Below are positions 51,617 to 53,857 of a stretch of 64,000 nt of DNA, piece by piece (positions within the stretch are counted from its first letter, which is position 1; each line of letters begins with the position of its first letter). The position numbers and the translations under genes were made by a program. The DNA comes from Bryobacterales bacterium (GTDB lineage: Bacteria > Acidobacteriota > Terriglobia > Bryobacterales > UBA6623): assembly GCA_026713545.1 (NCBI GenBank), contig JAPOOG010000129.1:124001-188000 (forward strand), given 5' to 3'. Under the pieces are notes generated by a model. It did no database searches and was not told the DNA's origin. It saw nothing but the letters and a program-made list of their open reading frames with translations.

Positions 51617-51717
51617 GGCCGCAGTATATCAATGGCCTCTGTCGGAACCGCCTTGGGCGGAAGGAAATCGTCGAGAATGAACGCTCCGGAAAGAGCGGAA
51701 CGATAGCCTTCCTGCTT

Positions 51718-52040
51718 TAGCCTGCAGGTCTCGCCACGCGGCGAGGCGAAGTGCGTGAGAGGGCCGTCAGGGCGAGGCGCGAGCCGGGCGAAGGAAAAAG
51801 GCGCGAGCCGGGCGGAGGAAAAAGGCGCAAGCCGGGCGGAGGAAAAAGACGCGCGCAGGAGTACTTGCCAAATCGCCTCCTTCCTCGGGTCACGAAACAC
51901 GGCCTTTCCGGTTCACCGGCCGTCAGGCATTTCTTCTGGAGTGAACCAGGCCCACTCCCATGGTTTTCACGAATCACGAGACACGAATCACGGCCTTTTA
52001 TCGCGTGCTTCGACCGTCGCGTGGTGAGAAATGCAGGCTG
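51718..52040. repeat. Family A element, long copy
   Basis: 323 bp, beginning TTAGCCTGCAGGTCTCGCC and ending GTGGTGAGAAATGCAGGC. Inside, a GCGCGAGCCGGGCGGAGG-type unit with AAAAAGGC is repeated about three times (51778-51850), an internal tandem expansion not seen in other copies. It marks the left border of the low-GC module. Confidence 0.85.
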
Positions 52041-52082
52041 GATTTACGGTGCCAAATCGGGGGCGTTCTTCCCGCCTGTCGG

Positions 52083-52185
52083 AGACCGCAGGCTGTCAGA
52101 GGCGGCGAAGCGCCTTGGAGTATCAACCGAGAAGGCCACGATGCGGGCCATCGACGCAGGTCTGCCTCACCTCGAACCCCAATAA
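52083..52185 (+). pseudogene. Possible helix-turn-helix protein fragment
   Basis: The frame reads RRLSEAAKRLGVSTEKATMR and then AIDAGLPHLEPQ before TAA. This resembles the DNA-binding part of excisionase or MerR-like small proteins (xLSEAAxxLGVSxxTVxR). No start codon or ribosome-binding site belongs to it, and family A sequence runs into it. It may be debris of the element that carried the adjacent module. Confidence 0.35.
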
Positions 52186-52281
52186 GCCTGGCTCTTCCGC
52201 AGCTATCTCTGTCGTTCCTTCCATCGCAGAAAGGATCGTATCCGTGATGCTCAGCTATCATGAGACTCGGTCCTGGGAATC

Positions 52282-52303
52282 GACTGACGGAGTTCCGTCA
52301 GTC
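52282..52303. promoter_or_regulatory. Perfect 22-nt inverted repeat upstream of the PRTase-SLOG pair
   Basis: GACTGACGGA (52282-52291) and TCCGTCAGTC (52294-52303) are perfectly complementary with two bases between. It lies 119 bp before the PRTase start and has no T-run, so it could be an operator or an RNA hairpin rather than a terminator. Confidence 0.5.
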
Positions 52304-52421
52304 TGCGATAAACTTTGCACTAGGTCTGGACCCGGGATGCCCTATCAACGCTCGGACTACCCAAACGCAAATTCTGGCTCTGGACTGAAGATATAGGCGG
52401 AAATCTAACAGAAGAGATCAT

Positions 52422-53015
52422 ATGGTGGAGTTCTCTCCCAGAAAGATTCGTGGATGCTGGAAGGCTGGCTATGCGCTGGATTGGCACATTCGCTCCAGCG
52501 AGTTCATAGGGTATAACGAGTTTGGGTATGAACAGTACAAGACTGTGCGGTCGCCTGTTGGGGAACTACTATTTCAGCTAAAGTACAGAGATAAGCTGAA
52601 CGTCGTGGATGAGTTGGTAGCTGCGGCAAAGTCATTCGTCCGCGAATGGGATCCGGCTGTCGAGGTCATCATTCCGGTTCCACCGAGCAACGCGGACCGG
52701 CAAGTCCAGCCAGTTCGGCTTGTTGGGGAGCGATTATCATCACAGTTGGGCTTGGAGTGGGCACCCGTTTCGGTCGTAAAGACCAAATCGACGCCCCAGT
52801 TGAAGGATGTTACCGACTTCGAAGAGAAAAAGGAGCTTCTCGACGGAGCCTTTGAAGTTAAGACGGGTGGTTTGGAAGGTAAGGCTGTTCTTCTGTTTGA
52901 TGATCTGTTTCAGTCCGGGGCAACGATGAACGCTGTGGCTGATGTTCTCAAGCAAGAGAGTCATGTCGATGCGATTTTCGCACTTGCGTTGACGCGAACT
53001 AGTTCAGCAAGATGA
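52422..53015 (+). CDS. ComF-like phosphoribosyltransferase family protein
   Basis: The 197-residue protein has the PRTase type I core: PVGELLFQLKYRDK and a VEVIIPVPPSNADRQVQPV hood-like segment as in ComF proteins, and the PRPP loop LLFDDLFQSGATMNAVADVL at about residues 159-178. The ComF zinc-finger cysteines are missing. Its stop overlaps the next gene's start by four bases (ATGA), so the two are coupled. GC content is clearly lower than in surrounding genes. The reaction is unknown; transfer of a base to or from phosphoribosyl-PP, or nucleotide-based signalling with the SLOG partner, is inference. Confidence 0.83.
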   Translation: MVEFSPRKIRGCWKAGYALDWHIRSSEFIGYNEFGYEQYKTVRSPVGELLFQLKYRDKLNVVDELVAAAKSFVREWDPAVEVIIPVPPSNADRQVQPVRLVGERLSSQLGLEWAPVSVVKTKSTPQLKDVTDFEEKKELLDGAFEVKTGGLEGKAVLLFDDLFQSGATMNAVADVLKQESHVDAIFALALTRTSSAR

Positions 53016-53590
53016 AAGTCTTCATTGGAGGGTCCAGGCACGTCTCTCGCTTGAATTCTGAGATTCGACAACGCTTGGACCGGATCATCCTGAAGGGATT
53101 TGAGGTCCTCGTCGGTGACGCCAATGGCGCCGACAAGGCCGTTCAGCGTTATTTCAAGGATCGAGGATATTCCAACGTCCACGTCTTTTGCATGTCTGGC
53201 CGCTGCCGGAACAACCTGGGTAATTGGCCGGCCGAGGAAGTTCCAGCACCTAAGGGCATGACCGGTAGAAACCTCTATGCGATCAAAGACCGTGTTATGA
53301 CGGAACGGTCTTCAATAGGTTTCATGCTTTGGGACGGAGAAAGTGCGGGCACATTGGCCAACGTGTTGCGCCTCCTCGACCAAAAAAAGACTGTTGTTGT
53401 GTACCATTCAAAATCGCGCGAATCCTTGACTCTTGAGAACTCTCAAGATCTTGATAAATTGCTTGCCCGCAGCACTCCTGAGGTAAGACGACAGGTCGCT
53501 CTTCAGAGTAGTGCTAACGAGAAGGAAGCTATTCGGAACACCAACATAGAAATGTTCGACATTCCCAAGCAGCCCTCCTCAGGTGCATAA
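53012..53590 (+). CDS. SLOG-domain protein (YspA/YpsA-related)
   Basis: This 192-residue protein has a Rossmann-like SLOG fold in its first 140 residues: MKVFIGGSRHVSRL (nucleotide-binding GGSR), EVLVGDANGADKAVQRYF (the conserved GDANGAD), NVHVFCMSGRCRNNLGNW and GFMLWDGESAGTLANVLRLL. The remaining 50 residues are a charged helical tail. SLOG proteins bind or process nucleotides and are linked in the literature to nucleotide-based conflict systems. It is coupled to the PRTase by a four-base overlap. Both genes are low in GC and flanked by repeat and recombinase debris, suggesting acquisition by transfer. Confidence 0.82.
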   Translation: MKVFIGGSRHVSRLNSEIRQRLDRIILKGFEVLVGDANGADKAVQRYFKDRGYSNVHVFCMSGRCRNNLGNWPAEEVPAPKGMTGRNLYAIKDRVMTERSSIGFMLWDGESAGTLANVLRLLDQKKTVVVYHSKSRESLTLENSQDLDKLLARSTPEVRRQVALQSSANEKEAIRNTNIEMFDIPKQPSSGA

Positions 53591-53617
53591 GGTAAGAGAA
53601 CTAGCAGAAAGCGAATC

Positions 53618-53643
53618 GTTGCGGAAAGGATGCTTTCTGCAAC
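53618..53643. terminator. Strong hairpin after the SLOG gene
   Basis: GTTGCGGAAAG (53618-53628) pairs with CTTTCTGCAAC (53633-53643) over 11 pairs with one G-T, loop GATG. No T-run follows, so it may be a weak or Rho-assisted terminator or a structural site. It lies 27 bp after the SLOG stop codon. Confidence 0.4.
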
Positions 53644-53749
53644 ATTGCACCCGCTCCCCGATCTTCACCCTGTAGACCCCCTTTTTACGCAGCAAAAAAC
53701 GCGGCGTTGATTCAATCGTCATTGAAAGATGCGGGCAGGGTAACTGCTC

Positions 53750-53857
53750 GTGAAAATTGGTTACGCCCGAGTATCCACCGTCGACCAGGACCCGGTGCTG
53801 CAAATTACCTCTCTCATTACTTTGTCGAGGAGATCGCAGCGCTACTCGATGCCATAG
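53750..53857 (+). pseudogene. N-terminal remnant of a serine recombinase
   Basis: From GTG 53750 the frame reads MKIGYARVSTVDQDPVLQ, the unmistakable opening of resolvase/invertase-type serine recombinases, including the catalytic Ser in YARVST. After about 18 residues the similarity stops, and the frame ends at TAG (53855-53857), overlapping the 3' end of kdsC. Only the first tenth of the gene remains. Confidence 0.8.

Follow-up and report, generated by a model that had tools for sequence, protein, structure and literature searches.

PsyrT/ShosT-type systems are described as toxin-antitoxin and phage-defence modules (PMC4670107, PMC9122126). For RqlHI, the phosphoribosyltransferase (PRTase) domain is reported to be required for toxicity and RqlI to be the antagonist; in the same report, the PRTase domain of RqlH on its own is described as non-toxic in E. 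coli (PMC4670107). A pair consisting of a DprA-like protein and a PRTase is reported to guard E. coli against the phages T7 and lambda (PMC9122126). A review presents ShosT as a PRTase plus pyrophosphatase that disturbs purine metabolism, ShosA as a DNA-binding protein, and T7 Gp0.7 as a trigger (PMC12593503). As to what is sensed by the DprA-like antitoxins of ShosTA and RqlHI, these accounts offer no more than a hypothesis.

We analysed a two-gene locus in a 64,000-nucleotide stretch of Bryobacterales DNA (the window), for which a preliminary description had proposed a coupled ComF-like PRTase and SLOG protein on transferred DNA (Table 1). What it had read from the letters holds: the two genes overlap by ATGA, the dispersed repeat and the truncated serine recombinase lie beside them, and GC is lower than in the surroundings (0.514 over 52422-53590 vs 0.626 in the remaining window, with 2 of 315 same-length windows equal or lower). 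The perfect inverted repeat upstream is real but is no hallmark of the family. Arms of at least 9 bases occur in 2 of 64 related upstream regions vs 0.55 in shuffles, and the window has five other listed inverted repeats with arms of at least 10 bases, two of those overlapping; lacking enrichment upstream of related pairs, the repeat was rejected as a family operator.

Table 1. Features of the PRTase-SLOG locus, in window positions.
Feature	Position	Strand	Basis or remark
P0001, stand-alone type I PRTase, 197 aa, presumed toxin	52422-53015	+	PADLOC, Pfam, structure model
PRPP-binding loop LLFDDLFQSGAT, catalytic DD intact	52890-52925	+	D160, D161 and G166 invariant in 41 aligned members
ATGA, stop/start overlap of P0001 and P0002	53012-53015	+	Read in the sequence
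P0002, SLOG-fold protein, 192 aa, presumed antitoxin	53012-53590	+	Structure model, PDB matches, HTH-fused plasmid homologues
SLOG loop GDANGAD, residues 35-41	53114-53134	+	G35, D36, A37, G39 and D41 invariant in 62 aligned members
Tail NIEMF at the motif site of relatives, Q replaced by N	53543-53557	+	Window copy fails Qxx(L/M/I/F)(L/F/I/M)
Perfect inverted repeat GACTGACGGA-GT-TCCGTCAGTC, 10-base arms, 2-base spacer	52282-52303	none	118 bases 5' of the pair
Copy of a dispersed genus repeat ("family A" of the preliminary description)	~51706-52046	none	Matches in own genome and congeners
Serine-recombinase element, remnant: its upstream DNA plus, from 53750, the first recombinase codons	53614-53816	+	85% / 83% identity to intact copies (G000:C3 / G001:C188)

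The first gene encodes the PRTase domain alone, with no helicase or HAD domain. Its closest PADLOC match is the PRTase domain of PsyrT (2.8e-22), and ShosT (3.5e-9) and DpdF (2e-4) are also matched; Pfam PF00156 is hit at 3.4e-5, under its cut-off. NCBIfam comF (TIGR00201) is hit at 8.4e-11 with 42.2 bits vs a curated cut-off of 233.55, which leaves P0001 outside that family. The structure model (pLDDT 95) matches H. pylori ComF at 8.6e-7, and the PDB matches include ComF 7p0h and ShosT 8zvd, 8zvb and 8zvc, with 8zvd having the highest query TM-score (0.59) among the matches listed. Across the order, PRTase matches form two groups, the window family reaching about 1e-21 and a second set running from 6e-20 upward in longer frames (mostly 270-330 codons), which we took for the ordinary ComF-like gene; the window genome carries both. 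These matches make P0001 a free-standing protein related to the toxic domain found in PsyrT/RqlH and ShosT. The preliminary description had called the system functionally uncharacterised; this goes too far, as PsyrT and ShosT are characterised relatives. It had also seen no nuclease or TIR effector in the pair; a further effector gene is indeed absent, but the PRTase is probably the effector itself, because it matches PsyrT and ShosT (PADLOC; ShosT structures), which belong to toxin-antitoxin and phage-defence modules. The reported harmlessness of the lone RqlH PRTase domain counts against a toxic role, since P0001 is only that domain.

The second protein, P0002, has no family match above cut-offs in Pfam, NCBIfam or PADLOC (YAcAr reaches 12.7 of 28.2 bits), and a PDB sequence search with the SLOG profile gave no credible match. 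Its model (pLDDT 92.9) matches DprA, ShosA 8zva, the ThsA SLOG domain and YpsA in the PDB, with E-values of 3.2e-5 for H. pylori DprA, 2.6e-4 for E. coli ShosA and 5.7e-4 for ThsA SLOG; structural comparison gave Z 13.1 for YpsA and Z 11.5 for ShosA (rmsd 3.6, 147 residues aligned). The model thus places P0002 in the SLOG superfamily, with a predicted Rossmann-like fold and the GxAxGxD loop. Among 62 relatives of P0002, 29 have weak Pfam DprA matches (best 8.9e-5), and PADLOC gives weak matches to ShosA in 17 and to PsyrA in 5; the family profile aligned weakly to the ShosA alignment (hhalign, E 0.057). Given that E-value and the absence of a PADLOC match for P0002 itself, we rejected its assignment to ShosA or PsyrA by sequence.

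Conserved pairing was the check set by the preliminary description, which would have been undone by a lack of association in other genomes; the association is strong in both directions. A GTDB genome scan with the SLOG protein found 216 relatives, of which 80 were retained; 6 were cut at a contig end, leaving 74 usable loci. The gene directly upstream is an intact PRTase in 57 of these and a broken one in 12, and 5 have none. In a viral collection, the PRTase lies directly upstream of SLOG at 12 of 12 loci (L104-L115) and was not found at three others (L116-L118, 28% identity). The 4-base gene overlap recurs in 50 of 69 intact related pairs, viral-collection loci included. In the reverse direction, all 39 intact PRTases examined have a SLOG or DprA-like gene downstream (hand tally: the window, L120-L128, L211-L214, L216-L219, L240-L254, and the plasmid loci L007, L008 and L130-L133). 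Two PRTase fragments without SLOG nearby (L223, L228) are both broken. Four of the 39 PRTases, all from one Acidobacteriota genus, have a DprA-like protein in place of the short SLOG protein, so that members of a single PRTase family are paired with either of two SLOG types; the DprA-like partner that was scanned (L125) matches PsyrA at 2.8e-50 and ShosA at 3.2e-36. The coupled PRTase-SLOG pair of the preliminary description is borne out, and so is its mobility.

The family is patchy and often plasmid-borne. SLOG was found in 12 of 100 relatives and in 11 of 396 genomes, and the PRTase in 11 of 297 genomes of the phylum. In PLSDB, relatives of P0002 occur in 98 records and relatives of P0001 in 78, and on annotated plasmids of Xanthomonas, Agrobacterium, Klebsiella, Listeria, Sagittula, Pantoea, Roseomonas, Acinetobacter and others the PRTase gene is followed directly by the SLOG gene. 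Phage records gave no matches to P0002 or a Klebsiella relative and only 8 weak ones to P0001; in the viral collection, P0002 alone gave none and the family alignment gave 15 loci. Mesorhizobium and Shinella plasmids carry SLOG orphans without a PRTase, which counts against a toxin-antitoxin pair. On three rhizobial plasmids (L006, L168, L170), SLOG occurs without a PRTase and without a clamp-type tail, near a DUF2493 gene that is itself possibly SLOG. On a Sinorhizobium plasmid (L133), the pair adjoins nucleotidyltransferase, HNH endonuclease and SIR2-family genes, a neighbourhood that may be a defence cluster.

Several of these homologues carry signs of an antitoxin. An HI1420-type antitoxin domain (TIGR02684/PF21716) is fused to SLOG on Xanthomonas and Agrobacterium plasmids (L003, L004), with TIGR02684 scoring 3.1e-26 and 1e-23; other SLOG proteins carry a PF13744 HTH (4.6e-19 and 1.8e-19), and at L171 PF13744 is a separate gene after SLOG. 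With our own two-sequence HMM, the TIGR02684-type HTH was present in 20 of 80 genome loci and absent in 60. P0002 has no C-terminal TIGR02684/PF21716 HTH, and tblastn of the downstream DNA found no remnant of one; on these grounds, and with 60 of 80 loci lacking the HTH, we rejected the window SLOG as a truncated form of an HTH-fused ancestor. Of the 74 usable loci, 12 combine a broken PRTase with an intact SLOG, and an intact PRTase lacks a partner in 0 of 39, the pattern to be expected of a toxin decaying beside its antitoxin. Since frameshifts in draft genomes may stem from assembly, the decay counts are upper bounds, and a Fisher comparison (0/39 vs 16/73, p 0.001) is indicative only, because the two sets share loci.

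These observations bear on whether the pair instead has a harmless housekeeping or salvage role, with a PRTase and a SLOG protein that binds nucleotides and that together, for instance, make or hydrolyse a nucleotide. The intact active-site motif of the PRTase would suit such a pair, as would the LOG phosphoribohydrolases and PpnN among SLOG-fold relatives. Ordinary ComF-like proteins, however, score apart from the window-family PRTase, and the patchy distribution, the plasmid location, the antitoxin HTH fusions and the broken PRTases beside intact SLOGs led us to reject a salvage enzyme pair, which we consider very improbable. Nothing in the present evidence points to the making of a modified nucleotide, which the preliminary description had suggested as a possibility.

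A further feature of the SLOG proteins lies in their tails. Bacterial sliding-clamp (DnaN) motifs are known in a pentameric and a hexameric form. Tails of SLOG relatives end in sequences such as QMSLL, QIKLF, QSSLF, QRSLF, QASLL, QPSFF and QLNLF, or in hexamers such as QPQLPL and QSQLEF; a review gives the bacterial motif as the C-terminal pentapeptide QL(S/D)LF (PMC9690074). Tails were scored for a pattern written as Q..[LMIF][LFIM] or Q..[LMI].[LF], and it matched 39 of 63 non-redundant SLOG tails vs 6.8 in shuffles (maximum 15 in 2000 shuffles). Because the pattern had been written after looking at the first tails, we ran a held-out test on tails fetched later, where 9 of 12 matched vs 1.15 in shuffles (maximum 5 in 5000 shuffles). 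The pattern occurs in 1 of 56 PRTase tails, in 20 of 412 other long frames and in none of the ordinary DprA tails of 29 relatives. The glutamine is strongly preferred (48 of 75 vs 7.7 by chance); when each other amino acid was substituted for it in the pattern, only D was clearly above chance, and far less so (15 vs 5.1). In HTH-fused SLOG proteins, the motif sits in the linker. A plasmid SLOG protein of Planktothrix (L174, 3874-4371) ends in QLNLFD, a near-perfect clamp motif, and no PRTase was found nearby.

The same motif recurs in the DprA-like lineage. All four DprA-like PRTase partners, from four genomes of one Acidobacteriota genus, carry it (QGRLF, QLSLF, QKRLF, QKKLF), as do 14 of 15 ShosA-type viral-collection loci (about 9 of 10 groups after merging near copies by eye). 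The solved E. coli ShosA (9vzo) has the sequence of the P2 4C9 protein starting at residue 22 and finishes with QQLSLLGDE, which holds the motif QLSLL, and one ShosA-type protein (L272) has a pair of clamp-type motifs, QLTLL and QLSLL, within its final 20 residues. The motif is absent from Pseudomonas Pf-phage ShosA and phiOH2 DprA and from all 17 more distant DprA-like phage proteins. Because it occurs in the SLOG family, in the DprA-like partners and in ShosA and is absent from ordinary DprA, we propose that the SLOG antitoxin would be tethered to the replication clamp via this predicted tail motif. The clamp-type SLOG tail, common to ShosA, is what is new here: among open-licence papers we found it nowhere in print, nor any link of ShosA or RqlI to the clamp.

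Antitoxins often bind their toxins by a flexible C-terminal segment, so the tail motif could also be the peptide with which the antitoxin binds the PRTase, its likeness to a clamp motif being coincidental. Where the PRTase is intact, 28 of 45 tails have the motif, which fits such a role, but 17 do without it; where no intact PRTase was found, 11 of 18 keep it, about the same share. Both known forms of the clamp motif occur, the preference for Q is strict, and ShosA-type proteins of unlike sequence end in a textbook QLSLL; we regard a PRTase-binding peptide as unlikely, and clamp tethering remains our reading of the tail.

Present at the level of the family, the clamp motif is not matched in the window protein, which is one of the weaker tail examples; several Acidobacteriota members with an intact PRTase lack the motif as well. 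These gaps, the other motif-free tails beside intact PRTases, the similar frequency of the motif where no intact PRTase was found and its absence from some DprA-like phage proteins weigh against our reading of the pair. With N in place of Q, the window pair may be independent of the clamp or on its way to decay. A search with 51617-53840 (2,224 bases) gave 97 matches in the window's own genome, while two congeners gave 96 and 22; most matches are to the dispersed repeat. This repeat is about 330 bases long, gene fragments often adjoin its copies, and it seems to be a major source of rearrangement in the genus. Only a stub of the recombinase is left at 53750-53816, whereas other copies of its element keep an intact 207-codon frame, both in the window's genome (L208, 5277-5897) and in a congener (L209, 6104-6724); each of these frames is followed by a frame that looks, by eye, like a tyrosine recombinase, possibly making up a two-recombinase mobile element. 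Serine recombinases, under the annotation "recombinase family", are also encoded near the pair on several plasmids. In the congener G001, the corresponding interval is without the pair and the end of the repeat directly abuts the position of 53759, which may reflect an insertion in the window genome or a repeat-mediated deletion in G001. That congener has SLOG elsewhere and its PRTase in two pieces, HMM 1-118 on C22 and 118-193 on C161, each adjoining repeat copies and possibly parts of one split gene; the SLOG gene is absent from another congener, G002.

The degenerate motif, the repeat and truncated recombinase that flank the pair, and the fragmented PRTase of the congener raise the question of whether the window copy is itself a non-functional relic. 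Both of its frames are open, however, the PRPP and SLOG loops are kept and so is the overlap, and we think it unlikely that the copy is dead.

Taken together, the pair is probably a small toxin-antitoxin module akin to PsyrTA, RqlHI and ShosTA whose antitoxin tail would be clamp-tethered in most of the family, a reading in which we infer toxicity, neutralisation, clamp binding and trigger. The conserved pairing and gene order, the intact catalytic motif, the kinship with toxic PRTases, the HTH fusions and the broken PRTases beside intact SLOGs all argue for a toxin-antitoxin module, as do the sporadic distribution and the plasmid location. The free-standing ComF-like PRTase would use PRPP and harm the cell if unrestrained, probably by disturbing nucleotide pools or DNA metabolism, and the translationally coupled SLOG-fold protein would act as the antitoxin that restrains it. 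In most of the family, the flexible antitoxin tail with its clamp motif would probably tether the pair to DnaN at replication forks or let it monitor DnaN there; once replication has been taken over or the element has been lost, the toxin would be set free. Assuming the logic reported for ShosTA with this clamp step added, the clamp-held antitoxin would be placed at forks and be sensitive to takeover of the replisome.

The trigger could also be of another kind. In an active anti-phage system, the SLOG protein might sense a phage-made nucleotide, and not DNA or the clamp, and then free the PRTase. Nucleotide binding by SLOG domains is known from Thoeris ThsA, to which P0002 is structurally close, and the protection of E. 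coli against T7 and lambda reported for a DprA-PRTase pair (PMC9122126) would fit an anti-phage role. Yet the annotation of the 12 plasmid neighbourhoods examined that have an annotated PRTase names neither a TIR gene nor another gene for making a signal, the nucleotidyltransferase and SIR2-family genes at L133 notwithstanding, and the conserved tail would be left unexplained; nucleotide sensing thus strikes us as a doubtful account. Returning to the clamp-tethered module, we tentatively suggest from the shared tails that the compact SLOG form and ShosTA may both be replication-fork guards, with an antitoxin that docks on DnaN by a C-terminal motif in two SLOG lineages and a toxin that would stay silent with a normal replisome and be released upon phage takeover or dismantling of replication, or upon plasmid loss. 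As a toxin-antitoxin module, the pair would show a phage-defence family in its smallest form, spread over many phyla and plasmids, and the conserved clamp motif would give a direct and cheap handle on what DprA-like antitoxins sense.

Compared with the described systems, the pair shares with PsyrTA, RqlHI and ShosTA a PsyrT/ShosT-type PRTase and a partner of SLOG/DprA-like fold, and it lacks their accessory helicase or HAD domain and a partner that is DprA-like by sequence. ShosTA, from E. coli and P2-like phages, likewise combines a PRTase toxin with a SLOG-fold antitoxin, both folds match, and ShosA ends in a clamp-type QLSLL just as most window-family SLOG tails carry the motif. ShosT, however, is longer by a HAD domain, with 424 aa in P2 4C9, and the DprA-like ShosA is about 330-350 aa and encoded first, whereas the order in the window is PRTase then SLOG. 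PsyrTA/RqlHI has the PRTase domain closest to P0001 in PADLOC and the same gene order, PRTase first and antitoxin second, but its toxin is reported to be fused to a RecQ-like helicase (PMC4670107) and its DprA-like antitoxin has a further domain. ComFC/GntX proteins share the PRTase fold with P0001, which stays at 42 bits vs the cut-off of 233.55 in a genome with a separate ComF-like gene. YspA/YpsA-type and DprA SLOG proteins share the fold and the GxAxGxD loop with the P0002 family and differ from it in the tail motif and the PRTase coupling, and P0002 stays below the Pfam cut-offs. SocB and RipA are reported as toxins of toxin-antitoxin systems linked to DnaN (PMC9690074, PMC12795458); as described there, it is the toxin that acts on the clamp, whereas in the window family the antitoxin bears the motif. 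The pair is most likely a new compact form of a known kind of toxin-antitoxin module, and not a wholly unknown system.
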